A DNA stretch of 64,000 bases, taken from Albula goreensis. Lineage: Eukaryota > Chordata > Actinopteri > Albuliformes > Albulidae. Positions 153-36,600 of the stretch are shown in pieces (position 1 is the stretch's first letter; each line of letters begins with the position of its first letter). The notes beneath the pieces were generated by a model that was given only the letters and a program-made list of their open reading frames with translations, was not told the DNA's origin and ran no database searches. The position numbers and the translations under genes were made by a program. The stretch is from contig CM040746.1 in NCBI GenBank assembly GCA_022829145.1, forward strand, positions 21,983,332 through 22,047,331, written 5' to 3'.

Positions 153-3100
153 GCATGCTTCCTCCACCTCGAGAGGTATCTCTAACATTTAGAAATGATT
201 TCTGCGTGACCTTGGCATGGAGACCACCACAGAATTTAAATCGCAGCACATGTGACCTTCAGTACTACATAACTGAAGCATTTGGTCAGGTGAGTACATG
301 TACGCTAAGTAATGCCTAGCGATGTTTATTTACTGGAAGGTGTAACAGAGTATTTCAGATCTGTCAATAATTTTGTAAAGCTATGCCTCCCAGAAACTAA
401 ACTAAGAGGAAAAAAAGTTATATTTTGCTTCAGCCGAAACAGTGAAGCTGAAGGTTTTAATGCAAATATGGCAAAGGAAAATCTGAAAGAGTGCAAGCAA
501 ACAAACATAATCCCCTTCGAGTAAAATGCCATTAAGGTTGTTTGCTGTTAACCAGTGTCCCAATTCATGGGACAGACAGTTTGAAACATAATACAGTGAG
601 ATACACTCAATGCACTGGCTTGGTTACATGCACATGTCACAGCTAATAGTTGTATTTTTTTTTAGCTAACATAACTTTGTTAATGTTAGGTTAGCTTTGT
701 TAAGATAGCCAGCTTGGGAGCTAGTGGTGCAGATAGTAGCCAACTTTAGCAAGCCCCAGTCACTCACATTATGTTAGCTACTAGAGGAAGTAGAATAGTT
801 TATTGGATATCTGCTGTTTTATGGCCAAAAAATCCTAACATTAGCTAATAATGTGAATGATAGATTCAGAGTGTAAACATAGTTGGCTAAACATTAACGA
901 TCAGCCTAAACTGTGCACTGATCTTTCCCAGTTGATCTTGAGTAATGCAAACATAGTCTTTCATGCCAAATAAAGTGGTTTCTGGACATGAAGAATTATA
1001 TACAATATATGGCAGATGGTTGCTCAAGAAGACTCTTTGTGGATTAATAAGGCTATGGACTGTATTAAGCATCACTAGCCTGGTGCCCTGATTCTTAGTC
1101 ATTCTGCCACCAGGGTTTCAAAAAAGAGTATTACCAGATGCAGGTTTTTAGCTTTTCTTTTATGCCTAGGGCAACAAATGGCTTCTCGTTTGGTGCCCTG
1201 GTCATAAAAGACGACCACAAAATCAGTAACTGACGATCATTTCTGAATATGTGACTGGTAAAACACATTTCTAAAATCTCATTCCATGGACGAAACATGT
1301 TATTCAAACTGAGCATAGGTTCAGTGTAATAATTCCTAGTTTTGCCAGTTTGCTTGACCAGAAATTATTCCCTTTACAGGAGGTTGGACAATACACAAGG
1401 ACAGATACACACTTTGAATCTTGTCTGGACATGGAGAGAGGAGTGAATTACACAATAAGGACCCAGCCCAAAAACTGTGGTGACATGACTGACAGCAAAG
1501 ACATAGTCCGGGGTGCTAGTCCCCCCAAAGGTAATCCACATATAGTAGTCCAGATATGGCCCTCTGCTAAGAAATGTTAGTCTTTACCTCTAAATAATCA
1601 AGTTTGACTGGGATAAAATATGCTTGTGTCAACAATGGGCGTAATTTTATCTTAATCAGACCTAAAAAGGACTGTATTTGCTGGGATGTTTCATATTGAT
1701 TTTCAATTTTCTGAGAACATTTTAAAACCACATTTTTTAAAATCTAATATATAATTCCAAAAAATACTTTACCAGGTATTACATTGAGCATGTCTTATGA
1801 TGATTTCAAATTAGGTTTTAGTGAATATTTCAAACTACAGTCAAAAATCTGCATTTTCATCCCAATTAAGTAGCTGTGCTGTGCTACTGACCATGGTCAG
1901 GGCAGCTCAGCCAAATGTACAACTTTGTTGTCACATGCCTGCTGTTCAATAGTACTATTGTGAAAGCCAGCAAAGCTATATATAAATCCCAAAGCAGTTG
2001 CTGATTACCACAGTTGCATACCGTTGAGGATTTGGCTCACAGGTCTGTGTCTTCTCTGATATACTTTGACAGAAAAGCTGGTAAAAGATTTTGAGTGCAT
2101 TTACTACACATCCGGATCAATGAACTGCACCTGGAGTCCAGCAGACCAGACCACAGACCTCCAGCTCTACTACTGGTGAGTGTGTCTCTGTGCAGTTTCC
2201 GTCCTATGATGACCTGTGGGGGTGTAATGTGCGAGTGGGGATCAGCGGACAGCTGTTGTATTATGTTAATTTAAACAATAGAGGGGAAGAGCCCAGTGAC
2301 AAAAGATAAATCACCAGTATTCTGCATTATTTATATCAGTAGACTAGAAAGCACATTGTTGATTGACCTTTTTGTTATCTTATTTAAATTCATAAACTTT
2401 CCTATTATATATTTCAGCACTGCCATACTTTTGCAACTGTAAGCTTGTGGCCAGGTGTTTTGTGCAATGACGACCACTCAGTATTGTAGAAAGTGCTGTG
2501 GGGATATAAAAGTGTGCGTGTGTTTAGGGAGGCATGTGTGGTTGTTTTTGTGGATGGCATGTGCATGCGTGTGCATGAATGTTGTGTGATTGTATAGGTG
2601 TGCACGTGTACACCTGTTGGTGTGTGTTTATACATATGCCTGAAACTGTGTATGTACAGTGCTGTGAAAAAGTATTTGCCCCCTTACAGATTTCTTCTGT
2701 TTTTGCTTTTTTGTCACACTTAAATGTTTCAGATCATCAAATAATAAGATAATATCAGACAAAGATATCCTGAGTAAATACAAAATGCAGTTTTTAAATG
2801 ATTTCATTTATTAAGGGAAAAAATCTATCCAAACCAACCTGGCCCAATGTGAAAAATAATTGCCCCCCTTGTTAAATCATGAATTAACTGTAATTAACCA
2901 CATTTTGTGGAAAGCTGAGTTCAATTTCACTGATTACTGCCAAGAATCAAGAACTCATTTAAATAGAACCTGTATGACAACATGAAGTAAGCTAAAAGAT
3001 CTCAAAAAGCAACACATCATGCCTCAATCTAAAGAAATTCAAGAACGGATGAGAAACAAAGTCATTGACATCTATGAGTCTGGAAAGGGTTAAAAAGGCA

Positions 3101-6100
3101 TTTCTAAGGCTTTGGGACTCCAGCGAACCACAGTGAGACCCACAAATGGAGAAAACATGGAACAGTGGTGAACCTTCCTAGGAGTGGCCGGCCTACCAAA
3201 ATTACTCCAAGAGCGCATCTACGACTCATCCAGGAGGTCACAAAAGAACCCAGAACAACATCTAAAGCACTGCAGGCCTCACTTGCCTCAGTTAAGGTCA
3301 GTGTTCATGATTCAACAATAAGAAAGAGACTGGGCAAAAATGGAATCCATGGGGAAGTTCCAAGGCGAAAACCACTGCTGACCAAAAAGAACACAAAGGC
3401 CCGTCTCACATTTGCCAGAAAATATCTTCATGATTCCTAAGACTTTTGGGAAAATATTCTGTGGACTGATGAAAAAAAACTTTTTTGAAGGTGTGCGTCT
3501 CCTTACATCTGGTGGGAAACTAACACAGCATTTCAGAAAAAGAACATCATACCAACAGTCAAACATGGTGGTGGTAGTGTGATGGTCTGGGGCTGCTTTA
3601 CTGCTTCAGGACCTCAACAACTTGCCGTAGTTGATGGAACCATGAATTCTGCTCTCTACCAGGAAATCCTGAAGGAGAATGTCCGGCCATCAGTTTGTGA
3701 CCTTAAGCTCAAGCGCACTTGGGTTATGCAGCAGGATAATGAACCAAAACACGCCAGCAAGTCCATCTCTGAATGGCTAAAAAAAACCAAAATGAAGGCT
3801 TTTGAGTGGCCTAGTCAAAGTCCGGACGTAAATCCGATTGAGATGATGTGGCATGACCTTAAACGGGCCGTTCATGCTCGAAAACCCTCCAATGTGGCTG
3901 AATTAAAACAATTCTGCAAAGAAGAGTGGGCCAAAATTACTCCACAGCAATGTGAAAGACTCATTGCCAGTTATCGCAAACGCTTGATTGTAGTTGTTGC
4001 TGCCAAGGGTGGCACAACCAGTTATTAGGTTTAGGGGGCAATTACTTTTTTACATGGGGCTTGGTTGGTTTGGATAGCTTTTTTCCCTTAATAAATGAAA
4101 TCATCATTTAAAAACTGCGTTTTGTATTTACTCAGGATTTGTCTGACATTAAAATTTGTAAATATTTACAAATATTGTAATATATTTAAGTGTGACAAAA
4201 AAGCAAAAACAGGAGAATTCTGTAAGGGGGCAAATACTTTTTCACAGCACTGTATGTATGTGTATGTGGTTCTGTGTGTCTGCAATTAGGTGTTCATGTG
4301 CAGAGTTAGTGTACAGACAGCTTGACTGTATCCTCTGGAACCTCTCTGTATCTCAGCTCAGTTTTGATGTCTCAGGTATAAGAATATGGCCCAGCCCCTG
4401 AAACCCTGTGGTTTGTACCTGTACACTGGGGGCCTGAAGACCGGCTGTCACCTGCATGGCGACTTCCTCAATGTCACCAACCTCACCACTGAAGTATTCT
4501 TCCTCATCAATAGAACGCATGGTCCCTCCACTCTGCAGAACAAATTCAAGAGGACTACACGTGACAACAGTAATCAAAGACCCATGTCCCTTGGCAGGCC
4601 TAAGAGAACAGTTATCAAACAGCAATACAGCATACATGCATTCCCCAGAACAAGAACTATAAAAGCTGTTGCTGTGTAACAATGTGATCACACAATTTTT
4701 GCAATGTGTGAGGTGTTGCAAAGAGACACTTGACCAAGGGCAGTTTTTCATGCTTTCCAGAATAATTGTTAGAAAATTATTTGATTGAATAGTATTTTAA
4801 TTGCTAATTTGTAAAGTTTCACATTTTTTTCTGATTGTGGTTGCTGTTGTATAACTTGTGTAACTACTTATATAACAATTGTTTACCTTTCCTGGTTTCT
4901 GCTAATGCCTGTTTGGAGTCACTTGGTGCAGTTCACACAAAAACAGTTAAGCTAATATGCTGCCTTGATACAAAGCATACTGTCTAGAATATGGGTAAAT
5001 GATAGGCAAATCTTCATGGGCCATGCGGTCTTGTCACTACATATTCTTATCTTTCTCTTCTGTTTAAATGTGTCTGTAGAAACTGAATTTAAATAATTAA
5101 GGAAGTTAATATGAGAACACATTAATTCATTATACAGAGTGTTGAAGGAGGGAATTGGTGCTGTGCTTTAACATTCTATGTCCTGCTTTCCCATTCTACC
5201 TCCACCCATTCACACAGTGAAGCCTTTTCCCCCCAAACTTAACATGAAGAAAAAGGAGGGGGGCATGCTGGAGCTCAGTTGTGACCCACCCAGTGGGTTT
5301 GACCCCAGCTTGGACTACTGGGACTACACACTTCGCTATAGAACCAGCAAGGACTCTAACTGGAAGGTACTGTTGGTGTTAAAGCAGTGTTAAAGCTAAA
5401 GTAGACTGTCGTTTTTCCACCCCAGGACCCTCTGCTCTAAAGTAATTGTCTGTTATTGCAGGAGATATCTCCTGTCCGGTGTACAGCACTCGTTCCATAC
5501 GACCATCACTTCCAGTACAGAGTTCAGGTGAAAGCCATCTGCAAGGATATCTGTGGAACAGGAGCTAGTGACTGGAGTCAGGAGGAATGCTATGGTATGC
5601 TCTCTCTTTTTGGTAGTTCTCTGTGATGTGATGTGCAGTGCCTTCATGGGCAGAGTGTACACCCTGATCCTGAAAAGCTGGGGGCTAAATCAGCAGCTGT
5701 GAAAATACAGAAAATGGTCCCCAAAATGCAAAAATGATCCGAATTAAAAGATATTGTTTTTGTGTGATGCTTTGGTTAATGGCTCTTCAATAGACTAGGG
5801 TCCTACCCAGCGTGGAATGTCTTTGTACATCAGCTAAAAACAGCTAAAATCACTGAAAACAAAGGAAATGAAAACAAAACAAATGCTTTTGCCAAACAGA
5901 TTAGGATAGGGCTGCAGCCACTGGCTGCAGCTCTTCTAGAAGATGTCTAAGTTTCTTGCTGCTTGTCTGAGTCAGTTGATCTTTTTGGTCTAAATGAGAA
6001 TTTTTGTAAGCACCATACATACATCCTCCAACTGCAGAATCCCATTCTGATAATCAGATATGGTGGTGAGAATGCTGGTTCAGGGCTGCATTGTTGGTGG

Positions 6101-7260
6101 ACTCAGGTGGTTGGTCAGGGAAGCATAAATTCATTATTTTTAATTAAAATTATGAAGTGCGATGAGCAGAAGCTGTGCCAAAATAAGTCCTGTATACATA
6201 CACCTACCCTAAACATCCAAGCAGATCACCAAATTCCTTAATTTTCTGGCAAGAATTTGGTAAAATTTCTTTGCTAATGGCAGATGAAGATTGATAAACA
6301 ACTGTAGGAAATGTATAATTACTTCTCACAATTAAATTCAGGTGTTCATTTTTACCTTCCTGACATAGCTGAGCGAGTTCAGCACCACCCACCAAGCTGT
6401 TCCTCTTGTCAACCTTGTGAAGAGGAAAGAATCGTTGACGATACTAAATGCCAGCTTTCAGTTTAAACATTGCTCTAATGACACTTGCCCTGTTGTTAGC
6501 GCTGAATCACCACAGCTTTTTGTCATTGGATGTTTTAGGTCAAGATCAAGCCTCTGACTGGTCCTTTCACTTGACTCTCATCGCTATTCCTGTAGTGATA
6601 ACAATCTGCGTCATCTTGTTCCTGTTCTTCTTAAAGAAGTAAGGCATCTGGTGCTGTGTGTTGGGGGAGGGTGGTGGGGGTAGGGAGTATTCCTAAACCC
6701 GTGGGTCCATTGTGAAAAGACTACATAAAAATTGACTAGAGATAAAAAAAAATTGATTGCAGTCTTAAATATATAAAACCAGTCGCAAAAAAGACAAAGA
6801 AGTCCACATTAGCTCATGCTTTCCCAGTCAGGCAGCAGTTCTCCCTCTTGACAGTGGTCCTGTTTCCTGTCCTTGTAATTTGCCATTAATATCAAATCAA
6901 GACAGTAGCCAGTTTTGATGTCTGGGCCAGTATGGCGTGCCTTTTCTTAGTCTTTATTCAGTCTCTCTTCCTCCCTCCTCAGACTCCGAGTCTTGATCCT
7001 GCCCCAAATTCCTGACCCATTGAAGTTATTCAAAGAGCTGATCAACAGCAAGGAGGTCTCAACAGATGCGGGCTCAAATCTCATGGAGAGCAAGGTAGTT
7101 AATATGATCATTAAACCAAATTCCAACAATAATGCAACACATTTAAACGCTAAAGTTGATCCTCCTGATTGTGTTGCAGATCTGGGAAAAGCAGAAGGTG
7201 TACGTGCCAGAAAGGCCAGAGCTGTGTGTGGATGTCTGGTTGGTGGACCAAGATCCGTGA
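153..7260 (+). CDS. IL-13 receptor alpha-family cytokine receptor, copy 1 (il13ra2-like), 5' end missing
   Basis: Nine exons join in frame: 153-289, 1380-1530, 2073-2175, 4376-4569, 5218-5366, 5462-5594, 6539-6638, 6983-7094 and 7180-7260 (TGA). All have AG/GT borders, and their phases match copy 2 exon by exon. The signal-peptide exon must lie left of the window. Seen in the protein: an N-terminal domain starting MLPPPREVSL; a haemopoietin-receptor module with FECIYY, MNCTW and LYYWYKN and paired cysteines; a third domain ending ASDWS where WSxWS is expected; a transmembrane stretch in exon 6539-6638; and a tail with ILPQIPDPLK, a Box1-like motif. NxS/T sites include NRST, NYTI, NCTW and NVTN. 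The layout fits an IL-4/IL-13-binding type I membrane receptor subunit. The spacing and FECIYY resemble IL13RA2, whereas the Box1 motif resembles IL13RA1. The exact ortholog is unresolved. Confidence 0.8.
2657..4252 (+). mobile_element. Tc1/mariner transposon with long terminal inverted repeats, inactive
   Basis: A 1.6-kb element lies in an intron of receptor copy 1, between TA dinucleotides (2655-2656 and 4253-4254), the usual Tc1 target duplication. The outer inverted repeats begin CAGTGCTGTGAAAAAGTATT and match over about 65 bp. A second inner match near 2790-2870 and 4035-4130 makes each end about 210 bp, of the IR/DR type. The inside holds a broken transposase. The well-matched ends suggest a fairly young insertion. 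No equivalent is present at the same place in copy 2, so it came after the tandem duplication. Confidence 0.9.
3019..4028 (+). pseudogene. Tc1-like transposase, disrupted
   Basis: The reading starts at ATG 3019 (MPQSKEIQERMRNK), meets an in-frame stop within about 25 codons, and continues in a different frame from 3165. Further stops follow at about 3438-3440 and 3487. The last open part, 3579-4028, carries MVWGCF, QQDNEPKHAS and SQSPDVNPIEMMW, which are the second Asp and third acidic-residue regions of the Tc1 DDE catalytic core. The first Asp region reads LWTDEKK near 3460. The stops and frame change mean no working transposase can be made here. Active relatives cut and paste their element at TA sites. 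Confidence 0.85.
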
Positions 7261-8325
7261 CCAACCTGTCCTAACCCACCAGTGTTCCAGCAACATGAAT
7301 GGACCACAAAAAAGAATCAACTTTGAACAATTGTGGTACCCTGTTCCTCTCTGTTGGTATGAAAGAAGAGGAGCATCTGTTTGTGCAGTTTTTGCACAAG
7401 CTCAACATTGCATGATCGGCACAGCGATTTTCTGATATATTTAAAATAGATATTAAATCTGATATTTTCAAATATATCATCAAGATATTTCTATGTGCTC
7501 CTCTGCACCACGTCTCAGCCAGCTGTCTCTTAGCTTCACGCTGACCTGAGTGTCTTTAGTTGGTGATCGTCCTCTTTAGTACTTACTCAGGGAGCTGTCA
7601 TTAACCACTGTGATGTTCATAACAACCAACAGTGTAAAGAAAGAAAATGAGGAGGACTGGAAGATTCCAGTCCTCCAACACCAAGATACTTCCCACCCAT
7701 TACTTCTGCTGCAACTAAAAAAGAGCTAGACCAGCACTGGAGAATGACATAGAATTGAAATTTTACATCAGCATGGTCCATCTCCATATTTGTCATCCAA
7801 GTTAGCTGTAGCTGTGGTACCCGTATGTGTCATTTTCCTGGCCAACTAACAAATGGTATTGTTGATGAAAATCCCTCCCAACATTTTTCCATCTAGTAAT
7901 TTTCCCAGATCCTCTTATTTTGCGATCCTCGTGCTTCATAGCAATGGGGGTTACCTGCACTTTGCAATAGTCTGGAGTATTGGAATGGATTCACTCTTGG
8001 CTTTCTTTTGCTAACTGCTACCTAAGCAGTCACTATTGTGGCACTGATATTACATGCTGTTAACATATTTTTTTTGTGAATAGTAAATGACTTTGTATGT
8101 GAAGACATTTCTAAGATTTTCTCTCTTTTGTAATATTCTTGTTTCATGAACCAAAATATGTTACTTTTCTAAATTTAAGGACAGAGAGAATAACTGTTTG
8201 TATTGCAAGCTAATTTGAGTTAACTAGCTGGCTAGTTCTGTGAGTACTATAACAGCTGCAAAGCAGCTAGCTAGCCAACTCTTTTAATGTGAATGTAAAT
8301 TTGTTCATAGATATTAAGTCTTGAA

Positions 8326-8331
8326 AATAAA
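8326..8331 (+). terminator. Candidate polyadenylation signal of receptor copy 1
   Basis: AATAAA sits about 1.07 kb after the copy 1 stop codon, inside TTGAAAATAAAAAG. It is the first well-placed signal I noticed and would give a 3' UTR from 7261 to about 8350. AATAAA is common in AT-rich DNA, so other sites remain possible. Confidence 0.35.
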
Positions 8332-8349
8332 AAGTGTCATGTTTTTACT

Positions 8350-10440
8350 AATTCAATGACTTATTAAAAACTACATACTTAAGCTTGAAAGGAAGCAAGT
8401 TTTCACAGGGTCATATGTTACCGTTGTGGATGGAAAAATCACTGACCATTGATATGAACTTTCCTCTTATCGTATACATTCCCTTATCTTTTCAGAAGTG
8501 AGAAATTGATGGGAGGTCCCCATACTCCCTCAAGTCAGAATTCCTTACAGTTCCCAGTTTGACCCCAATTATCACTATCACTAAAAACAGTAAAATCCTT
8601 ATTACTGAAAGTGAAATTACTATGTGAAAAGATGAAAACACACTTTCCATTTGTAAAAAGAATAATAAAGATTCATCAGAGTGAATTAAAACAGATGGGA
8701 GTTAAAATCAAAGAAAGTCCATTTTGCTATTTACTTAATAATAAAAAAACAATGTTTTTCTTTCCCATGCTATGATGAAGTAAGAACATTTGAATAAGCT
8801 TTGGGCCTGTACATACAGTTTATATTACCATCAGTATCTAGATACGTATTCATATTTAAAAGTGCTGTATTGATTGCTCAGTCTCAGAGATCTAGAATAA
8901 GATAGATCTCTTGTATTTATAGATAGGCATGATGAGTCCATCATTTGTATAAATATTCCAAGCTATAGTGTTTTCTGGAGCAGGCAGGGGTGTTTTGCTG
9001 AAACTTGAATTTCCAAAACTGAATGTCAAGAAATACTACCTTTCATAAATGTTACATATAAATCAACTCATGATTGTTTGATAGATTTACAGCTGTAATC
9101 TGTCCTAATGGTAATAGTGTAGTCACCAGGTATATGAACCAAACTACAGATGGAAAACCTGAGATCTCAAATGAAATGGCAATGAGCCAAAGCTGTATTG
9201 TGCTAAATTTAGTTGTTCCTGAATTTGCAAACGCCTTCCAGAAAATTTTATAGCACTGTTACACAGGAAATAAAGGTTAAAAAATTAACTGCAATTATAA
9301 AAGCGTCCAGAAGATGGCTTGAAAAAGGACTAAGTGCTTCCAAGAGTGAGGTAGTCTCATTATCTGTTCATCTTGTTTTCCAAATGAACCGAACCTTGTG
9401 CCAGTTCATTTAGGCCCCAGTCTGATTTACAGTTCATTTAAATGAATTTCACCAAACAACCAGGAAAACATACAGTACCTCTATCACATGGATGAACCAT
9501 ATTTCTGATAACACAAAAACCACTTCCACGTATGTTTCCCAGACCGCCTATCAGAGATTGAGCATCTGAAGTCGAGACCACTGGTAATTATTTTCCAGGT
9601 AAGAATTTGTTACCTGAATTTGTAGAAACTACGTGAATGCAAAAAAAAAACCGCAACACCCCAAGTTAGAAAGCTAACACGGAACTAAATTGCCTAATTT
9701 TAGATACTCAAGAACAATTTTAACTAACGACGTATGCTATTTCTGTAAAATGGGCAGAAATTGAAGTGGAAGAGGCTGCGACTGGTTCATAAAATGATAA
9801 CCCCACCATCCAACTCGTATTTAATTGACGGGAAATTAAAAAGGAGCCTTCTCTGTTTATTTTACATTTCCCTTTTTGTCTTTCCCATTTGATGGAGGCG
9901 TGGGGTTATTGCGGGGAAGGTGTGGAGTAAATGCATATGTATATAATAAGACATACAACGATACAAATTATGTATTATATATTTTATTATTTATTATATT
10001 TCTAATTACGTAAAATCGCGCAAACAAAGCAATGCATTCAATTTATTGGCCAAGTGATGGTGCAACTCGTTGGTGAAGAGAATTGATACTTTTGTTTTCT
10101 CTTTGCTGTATTTAACTTACCTGCTTGTACAAAAATACTTCTGACCATTGCTAAAGACGTAGTATTGACTCCGAACGATCTCCAGTTTTCAATATTTCAT
10201 TTTTAAACTGTTTTAGATAACGCATCATTTAACAATATAAAACAATGTTAAAACATTTCTAAAGTTTAAATGAATAGATTCCACATGCCTGTATGAATTA
10301 TTCCATTTAATATAAAATTAAACATATAGGCCTAACATAAAAAATTATGCGTTGAGGGAAAAGTGAAAGCAGTAATAAAGAGTGAGCTTCGTAGACCTTA
10401 AGCGATGATAGCAATGCACAACTTTTATACGCTTCCTACT
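8350..10440. other. Spacer between the two receptor copies
   Basis: AT-rich DNA with only short unconvincing open frames. I found no splice-bordered exon resembling a receptor domain, no RNA gene and no long repeat. The last few hundred bases upstream of 10674 probably hold the copy 2 promoter. Confidence 0.5.
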
Positions 10441-10478
10441 ATGCGTAATCCGTTTTCATTGGAGTTACTCTTGTTACA

Positions 10479-10490
10479 GTTCCTTGGAAC
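10479..10490. promoter_or_regulatory. STAT6-type element (TTC-N4-GAA) upstream of receptor copy 2
   Basis: The sequence GTTCCTTGGAAC contains TTC, four bases, then GAA, the spacing preferred by STAT6. It also has 5-bp inverted arms. It lies about 185 bp upstream of the copy 2 ATG and about 120 bp upstream of a TATA-like box. STAT6 is the main transcription factor of IL-4/IL-13 signalling, so feedback control is plausible. A single 10-bp match is weak evidence by itself. Confidence 0.35.
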
Positions 10491-10606
10491 AATACGGAAA
10501 TGGCCAGTGCTTGGAAAGTTCTTGAAATCAACGGCTTCTAACGTCTCCTACAGAGTACTCCTCGCTTTTATGTTTTCTTCGCTGGTATGACAGAAAGAAG
10601 TTTCAC

Positions 10607-10613
10607 TATATAG
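10607..10613 (+). promoter_or_regulatory. TATA-like box of receptor copy 2
   Basis: CACTATATAGGTA lies about 65 bp before the ATG at 10674. That leaves room for a start site near 10635-10640 and a 5' UTR of a few tens of bases. The position fits a TATA box. No transcript evidence is available. Confidence 0.4.
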
Positions 10614-10673
10614 GTAGCTGAGGAACGAGACCTTTACATTATTGGGAATACACAGTTTGAACACGGCTTCAAC

Positions 10674-13600
10674 ATGGACCTTCGGTTCACTGTATTTTTC
10701 CTGATTGTATATTGTTGGATGGCTTTCGCTTTGGTGCCACACGAAACGGGTAGGCTAATTTGTGTTCTTTTTGTTTTTAAACATATTATTCCCACAGTCT
10801 GGGATGTATGGTGTATTTCATACAAAAGTAAAATGATCTGGGGAAGTGTGAAAGACGTATTGACGGAAAAATGCGCATGTACTCAAGTTGACGAATAAAG
10901 GTACGATTCCTGAAAATGACGTCAGGGCGCAGAAACGTTTTTACAGTAAGTCCGGTTGTGTCTTAGTTTGGAATACCAATCTTTCTGCAAAAAATAAATA
11001 AAATAATTGAATAATACAAATCATTATATTTCGCAGTAATATTGAATTATGGTTTTAACCTGTATGAAGATAAAATAGCTACCCAGGTTCTCCGACTCGT
11101 GGTAAAATTGGCTTGATAGTCGATATTCGACTGACATTCACCTTCAAAAGATTCCTCCTATGTTGAAAGCATGTGTGAAATATTTAATTTCTGATGTAGA
11201 TTGTTATGCAGCTTTTGGGTTTATGTCCAACCTCTCAGTTTTTGGGCTCACTGTTAATCATACAAGCTATAAAATTACACTGCTCAAAAAAATTAAGGGA
11301 ATACTTAATCGTCACAGTGTAACATCAAGTCAGTTAAACTTCAGGGATATCAGTCTGTCCAGTTAGGAAGCATAAGCGATTGTGAATCAATTTCACCTGC
11401 TTTGGTGCAAATGAGAGTGACAACAGGTGCACTGGAGAGGCAACAGCAAGACAAACCCCAAAAAAGGAATGGTTATGCAGGTAGTGGCCACAGACCATTG
11501 CTCTCAACTTATCTACCTGACTGATTATTCCCTAGTTTTGCTTTTTGCTAGTGTCCTTGTCACTGCTTGTAGCATGAGGCAGTACCAGAAGCTCATTCAG
11601 GTTGCACAGGTAGTACAGCTCCTCTAGGATGGCACATCCATACGAGCCATCGCAAGAAGGTTTGCTGTGACTCCCAGCACAGTCTCAAGAGGAGATACCA
11701 GGAGACAGGCCATTACACAAGGAAAGCTAGACAGGGCCATAGAAGGGCATCAACCCAGCAGCGGTAACCCAGACCAGTATCTGCTCCTTTGTGCAAGGAG
11801 GAACAGGAGGAGCACTGCCAGAGTCCCACAAAATGACCTCCAGTGGGCTACTTGTATGCATGTTTCTGACCAAACTGTCAGAAACAGACTCCATGAGGGT
11901 GGCTTGAGGGCCCGATGTCCTCTAGTGGGACCTGTGCTCACAGCCCAGCACCCTGCAGCTCAATTGGCATTCGCCAGAGAACACCAGAATCGGCAGGTCC
12001 TCTATTGGCGCCCCGTTCTCTTCACAGATGAGAGCAGGTTCACACTCAGCACATGTGACAGACGTGAAAGAGTCTGGAGACACTGTGGAAAATGTTATAT
12101 TGCCTGCAACATCATCCAGCATGACCGGTTTGGCAGTGGGCTGGTGATGGTCTGGGGAGGCATATCCTTGGAGGATTGCCCAGTCCCCCAATGGTACCCT
12201 GACTGCTTTTAGGTACCGGGATGAAATCCTCAGACCCATTGTCAGACCTTACGCTGGTGCAGTGGGCCCTGGGTTACTCCGGGTGCAGAACAATGCCAGC
12301 CTCCTGTGGCCAGAGCGCGTAGGCAGTCCCTGGATGACGAAGGCATTAATGCCATTGACTGGCCGTCACGTTCCCCAGACCTGAATGCAATTGAGAACCT
12401 CTGGGACGTTATGTATCGGTGCATCCAACGCTGTCAAGTAGTGCCACAGACTGTCCAGGAGCTCACTGATGCCCTGATCCTGGTCTGGGAGGAGATCCCC
12501 AGGACACCATCCGCTGTCTCATCAGGAGCTTGCCCAGACGTTGTCGGGAATGCATACAGGCACGTGGGGACCATACACACTACTGTGCCACATTATAAGT
12601 TGCCATGATGAAATTCATGCAAGTTGCATAGCCTGTGATTTCATTTTTTTAAATTTGATTTTCAGTGTGATTATGAATCCAGCCCTCAGTGGGTTGATGA
12701 TTTTGGTTTCCATTGACCATTGTTACGTCATTTTGTCCTCAACAAATTACACAACCAGATCAGTAAAGATTTCCAACTTGAATATTTTGTTCATCAAGAT
12801 CTGTGTTGTGATTGAAGTGTTCCCTTCATTTTTTGAGCAGTGTAGTTCTGTCAGGTCTAACTAGAAATTAATTGGTGCTTACGAAGCCCTTAAGGATATC
12901 AAATACCAGAAAAAAACATTGACATTTGGATATTTATAAAGAACCATTGTCTTACAGGCAGTATTTATTTTAAAATGTCATTCTGAATTATATGTTTTTG
13001 TAGTACAATGTAGCAAGGGCCCTGTCTATGTGCTTAGGTACATAGAAACATGATCCATGAAAATGAAACAGACACTGCATAATTTCTCATAATGAAATGC
13101 ATGCTACAAAGATTTATTCATCCCCAGAGATTGCACTGAACATGTAATAAATCAGTATAATATGATAAAACAAATTACAGTTGCTAAAATAAATGTGCTG
13201 TTAACAAAATGTATTAAATGGCAGAAGTGCACAAGAAACACATTCCAATAGCGTACAGGTCAACAGATGCATGACAGTGTAACCTGTGCAATTGATACAA
13301 ATTTTTAATGGGGCTTTTATTTCAAAAGTAGAATTCAGCATCTGATTTAGAATTCACTTTTGTGAAAAAATACTTCTATGCAACTATTTATTCATCATAA
13401 ACTGAATAAATAATTATAACTGTATGATACACAGGGTCCAGGAGATCTAGTCTGAGTACCCACATGAATTGAACAAGCTCACTATTTCTTATCTGAGAAG
13501 AGGTCTGGTAACCAGGCTACAGGAAACCAGCAAATATGAGGAAATTCACATGTTGTTTTAAAAAAAAATGATGATTCAATTTTTATGGTTTCATGCCAAT

Positions 13601-16329
13601 GATTTCTTCAAGGCTGCAGATGGTTTCAAAATATATTTCTTGTCAATCAGCAATATTAATTAGCCATTAATAAAGCCTATGTTGTTAGTGTATGCAAATA
13701 CTGTGGTAAGTTTCACATTAGATCACAAAAAGGCACAGATGATTTTGTATGTCTGTATGCTTTTTTTTACAGAGTTATTGACCTTTGAAGTTTGAATTTT
13801 AGGCACTTATCACATATAAAGCTAACTTTGCCAAAATATAATAAGCAAAATTTAACACGCTCTTTTAAAAAGCTTATATTATTTAGCTTTATATTTATTA
13901 TCATTGTTATCACAGAGGTGTACAGAGCCACATGGAATAAGGCAATAACAATTCTCAGCTAGGCTGTGATAAAGCTGAGAGTGAATCTTTTTTCCTCCAG
14001 GTGCACTTCCTCCACCAAGTCAGTTGTCCCTCAGTTACATCAACAATTTCTGTGTGAACCTGTCATGGAGCCCACCGGAGAATTTGAGTAGCAGCATATG
14101 TGAAGTTGAATATTTAATGGTAGTAACAGTTGATCAGGTGAGCCCATGTAATTGCTTTGTGGTATATATTTTGTTCTAAAGAAGCACTTATGGTGACAAA
14201 CAATTTAACAGTGAACTCAAAAATACAAATTGGAGCACACCAAGTCAGTTTATGATCTGAATACCTCAGGGTGCAGTTGCAAAAAAATCTATTTGGATTT
14301 TTCCACTTCTTTCTTCAACAGTGAAACAATGAGATGAAGTAGAGGTAAATAATTTTACATAATTTAAAATATTACTGATATAATGTATAAGAACATGCTA
14401 CTAATGGCCAAGAGATGATTTACATCAACAAAGTCACTCAAACCATTAATGGTGAGGTCCCCCACCCCTCTGTTTTGCCCTCAGACCAGCCTGAATTTGT
14501 CAGGGCATGGACTCAGCAAGCTCAAACTTTGACTCAGACTGTGTGTGGGGACCCACTGTTTGCTACAGAAACACACCCAACACTCAACAATATGCTGCCA
14601 CCACCAGCTTGAATGAGTCTATGAGTCTGTGTAGGATGGATCCATAGAATCATGTAGTTTTTACCATATCCTGGTCCTCCCATCAGTGTTAAACAGATGG
14701 GAGGACCAGGATATGGTAAAATCAGAATTGATCAAACCAGGCAATGCATTTACAATCCTCTGTTGCCCAGTGATTGTGTTCCTTTGTTCACTGCAATCAT
14801 TGTTTTTTTTTTTTTTTTTGCTGAGAGGAGTGGAAACTGATTAGGGGCTGCCATGTCCTATCTGTAAAAATGTTGGGCAAGTATTATGTTGCGATATGCC
14901 TCTTTCGGCAACACTGTTTTACTGAACGTCCTCCCACAAAACCACCACTTGCAGGATGTTTTTTCAGTGGTGGGCTGTTCTTGATACATTCTCGACACTA
15001 TTGTGTGTTAAAACCCCAGCAGGATTTTTTTTTCTGAAATACTGATGCATCTAATGCCAAGTACCATACCACTTTCAAAGACACTTCATCAATGGTATCA
15101 ATGGTACTGCCCACTCTCCCTCTGAATTGCTCTCACACAGTCTCTAGGTACCTGTCTACCTGCTTTAATTAGAATAGTCTCAACATATGATGCTGTCACT
15201 GATTGAGCAGTCTATTCCATGGAAGATCATATTATACAGTGGCCACATATGTACAATACAATCTCAGTAGTCTTTTATTCTCTTGACAAAGCACTTTGCA
15301 TTTAGATAGGCGGTAATGTAATAATTCCTTGAGGTCACAAAATTGGTTTGCATGACCAGAAATGTTTCCCCTTTCAGGAAAATGAAACGCACAGAATACG
15401 TAAAGACACACACTTTGAGTCTTGTCTGGACATTGACAGGGGAGTGAATTACATACTAAGAGCCCAGCCTCAAAACTGTACCCACAGGACTCTCAGCCAA
15501 GATGTAGTTTGGAGTATCCCTCCCTCTGAAGGTAATTCTCACCCCATATCATCACACAACTGAATGACTACTCTGATATGGTCATCTGTTGATACATTTT
15601 TGTATTTTTTTACTATTACATTGTTTCAATTAGTAGTATCACACTGAGCTGCATACTTTTACCTCTGTGGAATTTGACAGAAGGATGCAAATGTGTCAAT
15701 TAGGCTATTTGATTGAAGGATTTTGATTGATGGCTTAAGGATTGTCTGAAGGAGATAATTAGCCTTCAGCTATATAATGTTGTGAGTGTTTTAGCTATCA
15801 AACTGCTATTCATGAACACTAATAACACTGGATCTATGGAATGTCACTATGTTTGCATACTGTCACATACTATGTCCACTCTGATATTCTTTGACAGAAA
15901 AGCTGGTGAAAGATTTTGAGTGCATTTACTACTCATCTGGATCAATGAACTGCACCTGGAGTCCAGCAGACCAGACCACAGACCTCCAGCTCTACTACTG
16001 GTGAGTGTGTCTCTGTGCGGTTTCCATCCTATGATGACCTGTGGGGGTGTAATGTGCGAGTGGGGATCAGCATTTTGTTTTCCTATAAACTAGAGAGGGC
16101 AGAGCCCAGGGTCCAGTCCCAATATATTGTGATGCAGTATCTTATTTCAGCCATAAACATCATCCATCGAAATGCTTAAAAAATAGATACTTGAAATTTA
16201 AGATAGCTAAAATACCTTTACAAACCATTTTAGTACTTATCAATCATAAGTGACTAGGTGTTTTGTGCACTGACTGACACTGCTAAATGTGATGCATGGA
16301 TGTAAACAAGGTAGACATGTGTATTCATT

Positions 16330-16403
<74 letters not shown>

Positions 16404-19106
16404 TATGAGTGAGAATGTTCATGTAATTTGGTAGTGTGTATTAATGTGTACAGGGGATGTGTTTGTCTCTGCATCTCTCAGTGTACATGATCGCTATCTC
16501 AGCTCAGTTTTGATGTCTCAGGTATAAGAATATGGCCCAGCCCCTGAAACCCTGTGGTTTGTACCTGTACACTGGGGGCCTGAAGACCGGCTGTCACCTG
16601 CATGGCGACTTCCTCAATGTCACCAACCTCACCACTGAAGTATTCTTCCTCATCAATAGAACGCATGGTCCCTCCACTCTGCAGAACAAATTCAAGAGGA
16701 CTACACGTGACAACAGTAATCAAAGTCACATTCTCTGTCCAGTTATCAGTTGTTCAGTTATCAAAAAGTACCATCAGTGAACTTCTAAAGGAAAGTGTGA
16801 GCCTTGTGTACAGGGGTTTGCATCCAGGTTGCACTATTGGTCATGATACGGCCAGAGGCCCATATTGGTGAAGCAACAGTTGGGGAACGGTAGGGGACAA
16901 GATGGCTGGTCCTGCTGGATTTGTTGTTTTCTAGATACACCTGGTCAGACTGGGCGCCTGCAGATGCATGCACAAAAAATATGCTGTTTTCGTAATCCAT
17001 GGACAGCAACGTGTAATTTGTGGTGTTGGCAGTGTATAAAGAAAAGATGGCTGGTTGTCATTTGACAACAAGAAAAGTGACATTCTCACAGCTTCTGCCT
17101 CCTGAAGTCGGTAGGCATGGTTGCAGGAGATCAACTAGTGTGGTTGCAGTTTGAGTCAGAGGAAAAATGATGTAAAAATAGATTAAAAGGTTCCAGTGGG
17201 TTGCTCCAATTCTGTTTTTAATTAATGACAAACTCCTGAAGTGAAGATGAATGTACCCAATGGTATCATCCAGTGTTGAGAGAGGGTTAGCTTGGTGCTT
17301 TGCTTTAACAGTTTTTCTTCGTTACTCTGCCCCACCACTCTAGTGAAGCCTTGGCCCCCCAAACTGACAATCAAAAGGGCTGATGACATGCTGGAGCTGC
17401 ATTGTGACCCACCCAGTGGGTTTGACCCCAGGCTGAACTACTGGGACTACACATATCGCTACAGGACCAGCAAGGACTCTAACTGGAAGGTACTGTTGGT
17501 TGCAGCTACAGAGTGTAATCTTTTAGCCCCATGATGCTCCTCTCTAAAACATGTGTCACTGTCATTCCAGGAGATACCAAATAAATCCAGAGCATTAAGC
17601 ATCTCATACAACCATCACTTTCAGTACCGAGTTCAGGTGAAGGCCATCTGCAAGAGTATCTGTGGAACAGGAGCTAGTGACTGGAGTCTGGAGGAATCCT
17701 ATGGTATGCTCTCTCTTTTTGACAGTTCCCTAAGATGTTCACTCGCTTTGTGAATAGAGTAACCATCCTGACCATGGAAAGTTGCAGGTTAAAGTCATCC
17801 ATCAATCATCTATACCCACTTCATCCGATGTAGGGGCACAGTGGGGTATTCCAACATACACTGAGCACAAAGCAGGGACACACCTCAGACAGGTTGCTGG
17901 TTCATCACAGCGCCAGACAGAAAAATGCTTACTCACACATACAGTCAAATCCACCTAACCTGCATGTCTTTGGTCTGTTACCTACTAGTTCTGTGTTTTG
18001 ATCAGAAGTAAAGGTAGTTCATTGTGTGTAATAGGTGTTCAACAGACAAAGGCCCTGTGCAGCTTGGGAGTGTATTTATGTAAGCTGCTTACACTGCAGA
18101 AATCAGGGAATCGAGATCCTATTTGCCTGCCAGGCTGGTTCTTTACTGTCGTGAACAAAATGAGTCTTGCTGCTCAGGCTCTGCTGAAATGAAGATCTCT
18201 CTTATTTCTACAGATACTCTGTTAAATTGTTAAATGACTTATTATGAATGCCACCTCCTTTTTTCTCCTGATAGTTGGTAGTTTTTTTTGAGTGTTTTTG
18301 AGTAAAAATGTTTGATAGGTTTTAAAACAGTTCATGTGCATTTAGACAGAATCTCCAATAACCAATTTAATCTTCAATTTCTGCAGGTTGGGTTTTGGTA
18401 AATATGTCCATTTTATTTATAAACATTGAAGCCATGCTGTATTTCAGTTTCACTAAATTGTATGTTTTTACAAATATAGCAGAACCTGAAATACACGCAC
18501 ACATATTATTCATTTAAACAAATTAAACTGTCTAATTATGCAGCAGCAGGATCTCCTGTCAACGCATAACACACAATTGTCAATACATATTAACACCCAT
18601 GCACATTCCAAACTGTACAAAGAATCAGGTTTGTTGTTTCTCTTTATTGTCATAATAGGCCTAGGTAAAAAGAAATCATAGCTGCACATAAAGAGCAGTC
18701 TTTCGTGCAATATTTCCAGATTTCTGAAATGTGAGGATTTCTGAGACATATTTATATAGGCTCATTAAGGCAGAAAAGGACAAGTAAATGATGAGTTAGA
18801 TATTAAAAGGCAAATGAAAGTCTTTTCATTTTTAGTAGGTATTACTTTTGACTTATAAATATAAAAAGGCCATAACTAAAAGATATGTCCTTTTTATCTT
18901 TTCTGTGCTTCTGTGACCTGCTAGCTTTCATCTTTACTGTTGTCCTGTTATCTGTGCCCTGTTTTTAAGAGCTGAGTTGCTACTGTTGTTTGTGATTGGT
19001 TGTCTCAGGTCAAGATAAAACTTCAGAGAGGTCCTTTCCCTTGGCTCTCATCACTGTTCCAGTTGTGGTCACAATTTGTGCCATCTTGCTCCTGTTCTTC
19101 TTAAAG

Positions 19107-19192
<86 letters not shown>

Positions 19193-19816
19193 CAGATCAT
19201 GTATGTTCCACATGGAATTGGGGTTGTTTCTGGTTTTGGGAAGGTCCATGCCTGGAATGTGTTGTTTTTGTCTGTGTCCACAATAGTGGTCAATCATGTT
19301 GTACTGGTCACTTATAGCTTCCCTGCCTTCATGGTATCTCTCTTCCTCTCTCCCCAGACTCCAAGTCTTGATCCTGCCCCAGATTCCTGACCCACTGAAG
19401 TCACTTAAAGACCTGACTTACAGCAAGAATGACCCAACACTTCCTGGGTCCTCCACGACCAAGGTTGGGATCCAATGAGCTCATTAACACACCTTGTTGG
19501 CTAGTTTCATATGTATGGTAGTACTGTGTGTTATATCAATAACACGTTAAGATAAAGCACCTGCTACACGTTCTATCAATATTGGCTTCCAAGCTATAAG
19601 CCCCATTTGACCCGCTAATGTCAAGGGTCTGTTTATCCTGTCCAACACCTGTGAAAGTTGACCCACTTTGTTCTTTTACAGAGTTTGGTGAACCAGAGGG
19701 TTTATGTGCCAGAAAATCCAGAACTGTGTTTGGATGTCAAACTGGTGGAGACTGAGCCCATTCTTGAGCCAAGACCCTTTAGTACCTCAGCTGTGGGTAC
19801 TCACAGACCATTGTAA
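10674..19816 (+). CDS. IL-13 receptor alpha-family cytokine receptor, copy 2 (il13ra2-like), complete
   Basis: Ten coding exons: 10674-10749, 14001-14137, 15378-15531, 15898-16000, 16522-16715, 17344-17489, 17571-17703, 19009-19108, 19358-19463 and 19682-19816 (TAA). They sum to 1284 bases, 427 residues, with every junction phase consistent. Exon 1 encodes a signal peptide (MDLRFTVFFLIVYCWMAFAL), which fixes the start. Next come an N-terminal domain with LPPPSQLSLS and LSWSPPENL, a cysteine-paired haemopoietin module (FECIYY, MNCTW, LYYWYKN), a third domain ending ASDWS, one transmembrane helix (about residues 325-347) and a tail of about 80 residues with ILPQIPDPLK (Box1-like) and RVYVPENPELCLDV. 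Many NxS/T sites point to a heavily glycosylated surface receptor. By family it should bind IL-4/IL-13-type cytokines. IL13RA1 and other alpha subunits remain alternatives. Confidence 0.85.
11278..12842 (+). mobile_element. Second Tc1/mariner-type transposon, inactive
   Basis: A 1.57-kb element lies in intron 1 of receptor copy 2, between TA dinucleotides (11276-11277 and 12843-12844). Its ends read CACTGCTCAAAAAAATTAAG on the left and, inverted, CACTGCTCAAAAAATGAAGG on the right. The matching end is only a few tens of bases. It belongs to a different Tc1 subfamily from the element at 2657-4252, as the terminal repeats and transposase are unrelated in detail. The orientation is that of the host gene. 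Confidence 0.88.
11630..12608 (+). pseudogene. Tc1-like transposase, disrupted
   Basis: The open stretch 11667-12212 contains a helix-turn-helix-like N-terminal part, a VSDQTVRNRLHEGGLRAR segment, FTDESRF (first catalytic Asp) and MVWGGIS. It ends in a stop after a frame slip near 12185. A second stretch, 12306-12608, holds WPSRSPDLNAIENLW, the third acidic site. Between them the usual QDN motif reads QNN (about 12288), so the second catalytic Asp is lost as well. The ORF-breaking changes and missing residue show a dead copy. Confidence 0.82.
14620..15246 (-). mobile_element. Degenerate Tc1-type transposon fragment in receptor copy 2 intron 2
   Basis: On the minus strand this stretch resembles a very common fish Tc1-type transposase region. 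In plus orientation I see tracts such as GATCAAACCAGGCAATGCAT, GCTGAGAGGAGTGG, TTTCTGAAATACTGATGC and a terminal ACAGTGGCCAC near 15236. It is broken by a poly-T run (14803-14819) and by a 26-bp inverted duplication (14659-14721). No open frame survives. The assignment relies on recall of the dispersed family, not on an alignment. Confidence 0.5.
14659..14721. repeat. Perfect 26-bp inverted repeat with 11-nt loop
   Basis: The left arm 14659-14684 (TTTTACCATATCCTGGTCCT...) is an exact reverse complement of the right arm 14696-14721, with AGTGTTAAACA between them. It lies inside the Tc1 fossil. The right arm looks like a newly inserted inverted copy of the left. Confidence 0.9.
16337..16400. 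repeat. (GT)n microsatellite
   Basis: An uninterrupted run of about 32 GT units lies in the intron between exons 4 and 5 of receptor copy 2. Open frames across it are artefacts of the repeat. Confidence 0.95.
17795..17990 (+). repeat. Degenerate dispersed fish repeat
   Basis: The block starts CATCCATCAATCATCTATAC and ends CACCTAACCTGCATGTCTTT. Between them are TATTCCAACATACACTGAGC and a CAGGTTGCTGGTTCATCACAG-like tract. This order resembles a widespread fish repeat that I know only from memory. It lies in the intron before the transmembrane exon of copy 2 and is non-coding. Confidence 0.5.
19109..19190. repeat. (GT)41 microsatellite that includes a splice donor
   Basis: Forty-one GT units follow exon 8 of receptor copy 2 without a gap: the exon ends TTAAAGAG and the donor GT is the first unit of the repeat. 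Copy 1 has an ordinary GTAAGG donor at the same place (6639). Confidence 0.95.
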
Positions 19817-33600: not shown

Positions 33601-36600
33601 TAGCCTTCTTACCAGGATTACTGTATTAACACCACTTAGGCCTCCACTACTTACAGTAGTGGTCTTCGCAAGGGGACCTTCATTTACATTTCAGAAAACT
33701 GGATTTAAGTATTTTAATTAGTGTCTACCCAATGCTACCTGCTTCGTTCATTCTTTAAAGTAAACAGTCTCAAAGAAACATGTGGGTGGCACTCAATTTC
33801 CCGGCTCATTTTTTACCCTTTAAATTAAAAGTCTTGCAATATCAAAAATAAGATAAAATAAACTGAAAGTTTACCCATAGTAAATATGCTGTAGGTACAC
33901 ATTAGTTGACCAGAGCTCCAGCTGCTGCATGGCTTGATTGTTGGTTGACCATAACAGACCAAACCTTGTTAACTGGTTGAATGTCTTCACTGCTCCACTG
34001 CAGTGGTTCCTGTGTATTTAAGGTCAGCAGAGTGACTCCTTTGGGTCTTTAATGTTTGTTTCCTCCATGGAAATGCTTTTTTTCTTTTGTGGATGTTGGA
34101 TGTGCCTTTTAACAGTTCAGTTTGCATTGTCTTGTATGCTATTCCTCAAGCCAAACCCAGGCAATGTCTTGATGATATAGTCTAGATGAGGCTGCATTGT
34201 GAGTACTAGTGTTCTCGTGTAAAGCGGATAAAGTTTGTTCCCGAAAGCAGTTCCTTGCCAAATCAAACAGAAAACAGTGTGAGAGCAAGGCTAGAAATGG
34301 CAAGGGAAATTCAGTGGGTTGATAGCTGTGCGCCAAGAGAGCCCGAACACAGCAGGATGCACAATAGCTCCCAGCATTTACAGGGTCACCTCCATTGTTC
34401 ACTCAGGACCCTGCTTTCAGGACAATGGAGGCTGGAAAAGAGACTGGCTTTGTACTACTGTATACACACAAAAACACACTCACTCACTCACTCACTCACT
34501 CACTCACTCACTGTCTCTCACACACAGGCACACTGCTTCTATGCACACCCATATGTATGCACACAGCCTCAAAACACAGTGGTATAGTATGCTCACACGC
34601 ACTTGTGCTCTAGCACTAGTGATCAACAAATAATAATCTATTGTTTTGCCAGACAAGAAAATGAATTGTTGATATGACAAGATCCTTTGCTGCTCCCACT
34701 AACAAAAATGATGACAATGCTGCAGCTTGCAAGAGATCTCATGAGCAAACTTGTATGATTTTATTATGTATAAGGAATAAAATGGAGGATTACGTTTTCC
34801 CCAGTGGAAGTGTAATATTGTCAATGGTAACATGAGTATACTAGTTGTGGTAGTAGTTCTGTAATGGATTGTTAATTGACACTGCCCTGTCCAACAACTT
34901 ACCATATTGAATCTTTGGAACCCTACTAAAGTTTTCTTCAGTCTTCAGTTAAACTTGGGCAAACAGTCATTCACAAAAGTTTTTTTTTTTGTATTTTCAT
35001 GATTTTTGTCATTTTCCTCATAATGCTATTACAATCTGTATGATTTTGCAAATCCTCCAAATACAACTCAATTGGATCAGTGCTATAACTAGAGAACCAA
35101 CACAAAGTACACACCATCAATTTTGCACTGTCTCTGCCCTAGCTTTTCTCCTCCCTCTCTCCCTCTCTTCTCTTTCTCAGTTTTTTCAATCTTTTCCTAC
35201 TCTGCTCAATTTTACTGTTGGAGTGTCCAACAGTAAACAACAGTCCAACTTCCAATTCAGTCATAAGGTCAGGGTGTATTTATGGAGAGAAAAGTGGATT
35301 TTAATTACAGGCCTGAAAAGGAGCACCATCGGACTGGTGGAGAGATTCACCACTGTCATTATAGGGTGTGGGGTGAGATTCTTACCACAGAAGTAGGGAT
35401 CTGGAAAGCGACTGAAAGAGGAAAAAACTGAAAGGCAAGCACTGTATAAGAATGCCAAAGGGCCTTTAATGAAGATGGAGGGCAAGATATTGATGATTAT
35501 ATGGAAAAATGAAGGACATGAAGTGTTTGGAAAAAAGTGTTTTTAATCTGCCCAGGTTTTTCCACCCTGGTGTGTGTATGCCTGCATGTTGTCTTATATT
35601 GCCTTTTTCCCAAGCACTTCTCCCCCATCCTTTCTTCCATTGGGAATTCTAAGTTGTCGTGTGCACTGCAGTCATCGTTGTCCCACCCACACCCTTTAAT
35701 GAAACAACATCAATGCATGTGGACTCCCTCACAGGTCTTAGACAAAAAACCCTCTACAACCCATGCATTGTGCTACAGAAGATTACACCTATGTGTAGAA
35801 GAGACATAACCCTGTGGAGCCTGAGTTGCTAGCGGTACAGTTGTTTATCTGTAGCCCAGTGGGACGGATACAATAATGTGTCCTGCTATGGTAGACTCTC
35901 AATCATAGTAGTCTGGTTTACATATCCCAGACTAAAACTAGCAATGGTAAGACTGTTAGGCACTAAAACAGGTAATGTTATGGCTCAGTCTGTGCTCAGA
36001 GCATGTGTTTTTAGTGAGTGATGATCTCAAATGTATGTACACTCTTGTTTCATCTCACTCTTTCTTATATTTAACTGGAGAAGCTAAATATTAGATTGTG
36101 TTCAGAACAGAAGTTGTGCACTCGTATACAGTTTAGAAGTTCATTTGTATGACAACTAACAATGCCACTGCTTGCATGCGAGCTGGTGTTTAGGCCTATC
36201 TGCATGAGTTCCCATGTGTGTCGTTGCACCTGTGCATATCAGTCAGCGGCTTTAGTATGCGCATGTGTGGGACAGCCTGGGCATTGTGTGCATATGCAGG
36301 CATGTATTCAAGCTCTGATCTAAATTCACAGCTGTGGCCTGTCAGTCTGAAACTTGGGCATTCATGGGATTGGCAGACCTGTGTGTGCGCATGTTCATGA
36401 TTGTGTATGCTCCCTCAGAGGATTTACGATAAATAGCTGTGATAGAAAGTTGTGTCTCATTGATTTGTGTTACAGATTATTTTTTCTTCTCTGTCTACAG
36501 ACCTATCAAAGAATCGTCTGTGTGAGTTGCCAGAGGAGCTCTGTCAGTTCATCTCACTGGAAACACTCAGCCTCTACCACAACTGTGTTCGGTCCATCAC

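Follow-up and report, generated by a model that had tools for sequence, protein, structure and literature searches.

Gene conversion as the probable source of two exon-centred islands of near-identity in a tandem cytokine-receptor gene pair of Albula goreensis

Here, we analysed a window of 64,000 nucleotides from the ray-finned fish Albula goreensis (assembly GCA_022829145.1, contig CM040746.1, positions 21,983,332 to 22,047,331 of the forward strand), where two class I cytokine-receptor genes, copy A and copy B, lie in tandem. Both genes are predicted to be complete and to code for 411 and 427 amino acids, respectively, in a ten-exon spliced model, and the pair is probably il13ra1-like, as judged from its sequence and its neighbourhood. 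The copies are strongly diverged, except in two islands around exons 4 and 5, which code for domain D2 and thereby for the first half of the cytokine-binding module. Interlocus (ectopic) gene conversion between old tandem copies in both D2 exons is very probably the best explanation for this pattern.

The receptor genes and their domain map

When exons 2-9 were scanned against Pfam, both copies scored above cut-off for the class I cytokine-receptor domains PF22012, PF21604 and PF09240. Residues C130, C140, W142, C167 and C180 are also present in both; compared with the class I motif CX(9-10)CXWX(26-32)CX(10-15)C, as quoted in a passage of PMC1963337, the spacing between the tryptophan and the following cysteine is 24 rather than 26-32 residues, and the three other parts fit. 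From the Pfam and PDB matches, together with the general anatomy of these receptors, exons 2-3 code for the immunoglobulin (Ig)-like domain D1, exons 4-5 for the whole of D2, exons 6-7 for D3 with its WSXWS-like motif, exon 8 for the transmembrane segment and exons 9-10 for the tail. A first-pass annotation of this DNA had placed one identical exon in the cytokine-binding module. The tails of both copies contain LPQIPDPLK, of which we take LPQIPDP to be Box1-like. The exon 9/10 junctions and the exon 9 donors are predictions. In copy B, which spans 10674-19816, a perfect (GT)41 run at 19109-19190 lies directly at the predicted donor of exon 8, and the donor GT would belong to this microsatellite.

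Two islands in diverged copies

The first-pass annotation had reported a base-for-base match between positions 4349-4579 and 16495-16725, and a direct comparison gave the same result, with 0 differences in 231 bp, a mismatch at the next base on each side and hence 0 bases of extension. As described there, the block consists of a 194-bp exon, exon 5 (4376-4569 / 16522-16715), preceded by 27 bp and followed by 10 bp of intron. Class-wise shuffling of the alignment, repeated 2000 times, gave identical runs of at most 55, and 2000 draws at the rates found outside the islands gave at most 42, compared with the observed 231; both maxima were the same under two alignments. The longest run actually present outside the islands is 35 bp. 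A second island, absent from the first-pass annotation, surrounds exon 4 (2045-2246 / 15870-16071, 95.5% identity), and its core at 2064-2246 holds 5 differences in 183 bp. In a two-state model with class-specific background rates and a match rate of 0.98 in the conversion state, island 1 was called at A 2056-2246 / B 15881-16071 with 6 mismatches in 191 bp (natural-log likelihood ratio 77) and island 2 at A 4350-4578 / B 16496-16724 with 0 in 229 (ratio 67).

The edges of the islands are sharp. Island 1 takes in 71 bp of intron after exon 4, with two differences, past which similarity falls abruptly. Where the islands end inside intron 4, each of them borders on a 13-bp indel of the pairwise alignment. 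Diverged homologous sequence flanks each island on both sides and the exon order is the same in both genes; flanking order is therefore kept without crossover, as in a conversion tract, and we infer that the transfer was one-way. An unequal crossover was rejected, as similarity should then continue on one side of the breakpoint, which it does not. The GC content of the islands is 0.485-0.497, compared with 0.42-0.53 for exons, and this comparison gave no signal of GC-biased conversion in the islands.

Outside the islands, synonymous divergence (dS, Nei-Gojobori method, exons 1-9 with exon 10 left out) ranges from 0.37 to 1.03 across the seven exons other than 4 and 5, including values of 0.57, 0.37 and 0.41 for exons 1, 8 and 9, respectively. 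The exon pair 153-289 / 14001-14137, which had been put forward as an example of strong difference, is indeed such a case, with proportions of synonymous and nonsynonymous differences (pS and pN) of 0.56 and 0.27, a dS of 1.03 and an amino-acid identity of 46%. Pooled, the seven exons differ at 68.7 of 180.7 synonymous sites and have an amino-acid identity of 62%, as opposed to 2.0 of 64.7 and 99% for exons 4-5. In exon 5, 0 of 44.7 synonymous sites have changed, for which the chance is ~5e-10 at the pooled pS of 0.38 and 2e-7 at the lowest exon pS of 0.29, with independent sites assumed. The introns are homologous yet near-saturated: each intron pair scored above all 20 of its own shuffles (in blocks of two bases), but outside the islands aligned-base identity exceeded that of the shuffles by no more than 0.02 and was often lower. 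Low intronic divergence across the whole duplicated unit, the finding that was to speak against conversion according to the first-pass annotation, is therefore not what the introns show.

Table 1. Coordinates of the exons, islands and intron 4 segments in the window (copy A exon 1 lies upstream of it)
Feature	Position	Strand	Remark
Copy A exon 1	-2395 to -2320		upstream of window
Copy A exon 2	153-289	+	D1 first half; control exon, dS 1.03
Copy A exon 3	1380-1530	+	D1 second half; control exon, dS 0.60
Copy A exon 4	2073-2175	+	D2 first half; dS 0.107
Copy A exon 5	4376-4569	+	D2 second half; dS 0
Copy A exon 6	5218-5366	+	D3 first half; dS 0.37
Copy A exon 7	5462-5594	+	D3 second half, WSXWS-like DWSQE; dS 0.51
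Copy A exon 8	6539-6638	+	transmembrane
Copy A exon 9	6983-7094	+	presumed Box1-like LPQIPDP; predicted donor
Copy A exon 10 with stop codon	7180-7260	+	predicted exon 9/10 junction
Copy B exon 1	10674-10749	+	start codon, signal peptide
Copy B exon 2	14001-14137	+	
Copy B exon 3	15378-15531	+	
Copy B exon 4	15898-16000	+	
Copy B exon 5	16522-16715	+	
Copy B exon 6	17344-17489	+	
Copy B exon 7	17571-17703	+	
Copy B exon 8	19009-19108	+	
Copy B exon 9	19358-19463	+	predicted donor
Copy B exon 10 with stop codon	19682-19816	+	predicted junction
Island 1, copy A	2056-2246	+	exon 4 + 71 bp of intron 4; 6/191 mismatches with copy B
Island 1, copy B	15881-16071	+	
Island 2, copy A	4349-4579	+	exon 5 with 27 bp of intron before it and 10 bp after it; identical to copy B
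Island 2, copy B	16495-16725	+	
Copy A intron 4 between islands	2247-4348	+	homologous to 16072-16494 but diverged; holds Tc1-like transposon
Copy B intron 4 between islands	16072-16494	+	(TG)n run at 16330-16404

Origin of the islands

Perfect identity in exon 5 with edges at heterology could also arise from over-polishing of similar paralogues, and exon 5 of one copy could have been corrected or filled with reads of the other copy. We consider such an assembly or polishing artefact improbable, as island 1 is imperfect and has kept its five core differences, and the diverged flanks of both islands fit neither a collapse nor a false haplotype copy. In addition, the window lies on a 41.9-Mb contig (C6) in an assembly of 932 Mb and 208 contigs, which suggests that long reads were used. 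A DNA search of this genome with the block gave two matches, both inside the window, and the eight protein matches listed at E values up to 1 (14 candidates scored) all fall in the two receptor genes; such counts are lower bounds for repeats and large families. A third donor copy was therefore not found in the genome and was rejected as a source. A scan of viral contigs for relatives gave 20 stretches that fit a pattern, none of which was confirmed.

Could selection on D2 alone, without exchange of DNA, have kept the two exons alike? The predicted frames are intact in both copies, the class I cysteines and the tryptophan are kept in D2, and several exons beyond the islands likewise have similar splice flanks. 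However, the silent sites of exon 5 are as unchanged as the others, and already by this purifying selection is strongly disfavoured. Furthermore, 69 of the 71 intron bases after exon 4 match, and when compared with human IL-13Ra2, D2 is not conserved to any special degree over the aligned part, with 23 of 95 aligned residues shared as compared to 20 of 78 in D1 (only 14 D3 residues enter the comparison). We thus regard this explanation as highly improbable. Constraint from an antisense gene was likewise rejected; the antisense frame is open for 147 codons in copy A and 84 in copy B, with no evidence of a gene.

Gene conversion accounts both for the contrast in silent sites and for sharp islands within diverged flanks. 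The first-pass annotation had suggested recent conversion or a strand-exchange event; conversion is supported, but one simple event is not sufficient, as the two islands are split by a diverged intron, for which reason one simple tract across both exons was also rejected. Because of this intron, and because the islands differ in divergence (5/183 versus 0/231, Fisher p = 0.016), at least two short conversion events are most likely, of which the one around exon 4 would have come first and the one in exon 5 later. We propose that one copy suffered a break, for which the other served as the repair template. Strand exchange would have been confined to the stretch that could still pair, and the tracts would end shortly into the introns, where homology collapses; the indels at the inner edges would fit an exchange that halted at heterology. 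For copies this diverged, recombination should require homology longer than the 35 bp of the longest run outside the islands, which suggests that the D2 exons were already alike before the recent event, a likeness that might have been kept by earlier conversions or by selection. The lengths of the islands fit published estimates of conversion tracts, given as mostly 50 to several hundred bp in a passage of PMC3924818.

A variant of the conversion explanation is a single event across both exons and the intron between them, with later re-divergence of this intron or its patchy mismatch repair to the recipient. This would suit the neighbouring position of the islands, but we think it unlikely: beyond the islands, intron 4 shows much the same divergence as the other introns, re-divergence of the middle alone is implausible given the 69/71 and 37/37 matching bases in the intron parts of the islands, and patchy repair would require pairing across a very diverged intron. 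Spliced RNA or cDNA of one copy as the template would explain why the islands are centred on exons. To this we give hardly any credence, as both islands hold intron sequence, which is absent from a spliced template, and a fully spliced template is thereby excluded.

Several observations weigh against our explanation, or at least against parts of its support. Firstly, the difference in divergence between the islands reaches only the p value given above, and there may have been a single patchy event instead. Secondly, nine further, weaker segments of 10-65 bp were called by the same two-state model, and a degree of local similarity is thus ordinary. The best of these, 5548-5612, has a ratio of 18 at a rate of 0.98 and extends to 5510-5612 at a rate of 0.95; this patch at the end of exon 7 (5510-5612 / 17619-17721) differs at 7 of 103 positions and includes 18 bp of the following intron. 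It might represent an older conversion tract, a reading that we do not claim. Thirdly, the first-pass annotation had used identity beyond the exon edges as evidence for conversion, and this argument holds for the 71-bp run after exon 4 but is weak for the flanks of exon 5. Among 30-base acceptor flanks, 28 positions match for exon 5, 25 for exon 3, 24 for exon 4 and 23 for exon 9. Downstream of exons 6 and 7, all of the first 10 intron bases match (10/10), and no conversion is claimed at these edges or before exon 3. Since other exons share similar splice flanks, those of exon 5 are unexceptional on their own, and its 27 + 10 intron bases are weaker evidence than first thought. Further into the intron, at donor positions +11 to +40, exon 4 matches at 28/30 positions; exon 7 reaches 21/30, and the seven remaining donors 5-12/30. 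The case for gene conversion therefore rests on the silent sites of exon 5 and the intron run after exon 4.

Intron 4 of copy A contains a Tc1-like DNA transposon (2657-4252) with TA flanks and inverted terminal repeats that are 84% alike, the transposase of which is present as two separate open pieces, 3108-3440 and 3489-4028. This element was not seen in copy B; in copy A, the counterpart of the (TG)n run of copy B is rich in TG and contains the transposon. A second Tc1-like transposase remnant is located in intron 1 of copy B (11628-12608).

Receptor identity, known parallels and implications

Among the PDB matches of copy A, IL-13Ra2 (3.4e-11) and the common gamma chain (3.5e-11) are practically tied, followed by GM-CSFRa (2.4e-10) and IL-13Ra1 (4.7e-7). 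The IL-13Ra2 match covers query residues 18-316 and the gamma-chain matches only ~100-299, and by sequence the best IL-13 receptor match is Ra2, not Ra1. The N-terminal IL-13Ra Ig-like model PF18001 gave E values of 0.035 for copy A and 2.9e-5 for copy B, both below the curated cut-off. Neither this model nor the PDB ranking settles Ra1 versus Ra2. A Box1-bearing cytoplasmic tail separates IL-13Ra1 from IL-13Ra2. A DOCK gene is located upstream of the receptors on the same strand, with DOCK10 and DOCK9 as its closest PDB chains, and DOCK9/10/11 form one grouping. Due to this gene, and to the human IL13RA1 gene, which adjoins DOCK11, the pair is called il13ra1-like. No paper on IL13RA1-DOCK11 synteny was found in a search of the open-access literature. 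An early idea, an IL13RA2 locus beside LRCH2, was dropped once the DOCK gene was found, and the open-access search gave no paper relevant by title to il13ra2-lrch2 linkage. Downstream of the receptors, the reading frames of a leucine-rich-repeat gene lie at 36464-38990; three of the four scanned match general leucine-rich-repeat models of Pfam, all below the curated cut-offs, and by eye we take the gene to be LRCH-like. Beyond the window, an immunoglobulin V-set reading frame is found ~74 kb upstream (L013:5947-6456, minus strand), with a further frame of Ig-like appearance ~1 kb beyond it, and a JmjC domain reading frame, as in histone demethylases, ~28 kb downstream (L021:8443-8835, minus strand).

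A close published parallel is TLR1/TLR6 of nine mammals, tandem immune receptors in which conversion is reported to be confined to one region (Kruithof et al. 2007, PMC2077338). In both cases, one part of the protein is homogenised between tandem immune-receptor paralogues and others diverge. For TLR1/TLR6, conversion is proposed there to keep common binding partners, and ~300 amino acids are involved; our pair comes from one genome, with 99 codons compared in two exons that are separated by a diverged intron, and it is an extracellular cytokine-receptor domain that is affected. Mammalian CXCR1/CXCR2, for which conversion has been proposed, are also linked immune receptors kept alike, which is attributed to ligand-receptor co-evolution in a passage of PMC4052464, but they are chemokine receptors, and it is overall identity, not a two-exon mosaic, that is discussed there. 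The teleost IL-13Ra1 and IL-13Ra2 described in parts of PMC1963337 and PMC7274943 are class I receptors like our pair, and the PDB matches of copy A include chains of the IL-13 receptor. Receptor pairs of trout are attributed to whole-genome duplication in a passage of PMC7274943, unlike the tandem duplication with mosaic similarity seen here. We found no report of gene conversion between fish class I cytokine receptors in the open-access literature, most subscription papers lying outside this search, and the gene-conversion passages of PMC3296744 concern STAT genes. Conversion between tandem copies of a fish cytokine receptor would add a new case to a process that is already known.

In this pair, we probably have a clean natural case of old duplicates with recent conversion restricted to those exons that code for one structural domain. 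Such a pair could be used to test why such islands persist, either through selection for a common domain or as the last stretches similar enough to recombine. Receptor trees built from the cytokine-binding domain would make the copies appear younger than they are. One might also speculate, although we regard this as doubtful, that recurrent conversion, kept by selection, holds D2 identical and leaves the Ig-like D1 and the tail to diverge, a modular form of concerted evolution. If true, the two receptors would combine a common ligand-contact module with two freely evolving ends, one for specificity and one for signalling.

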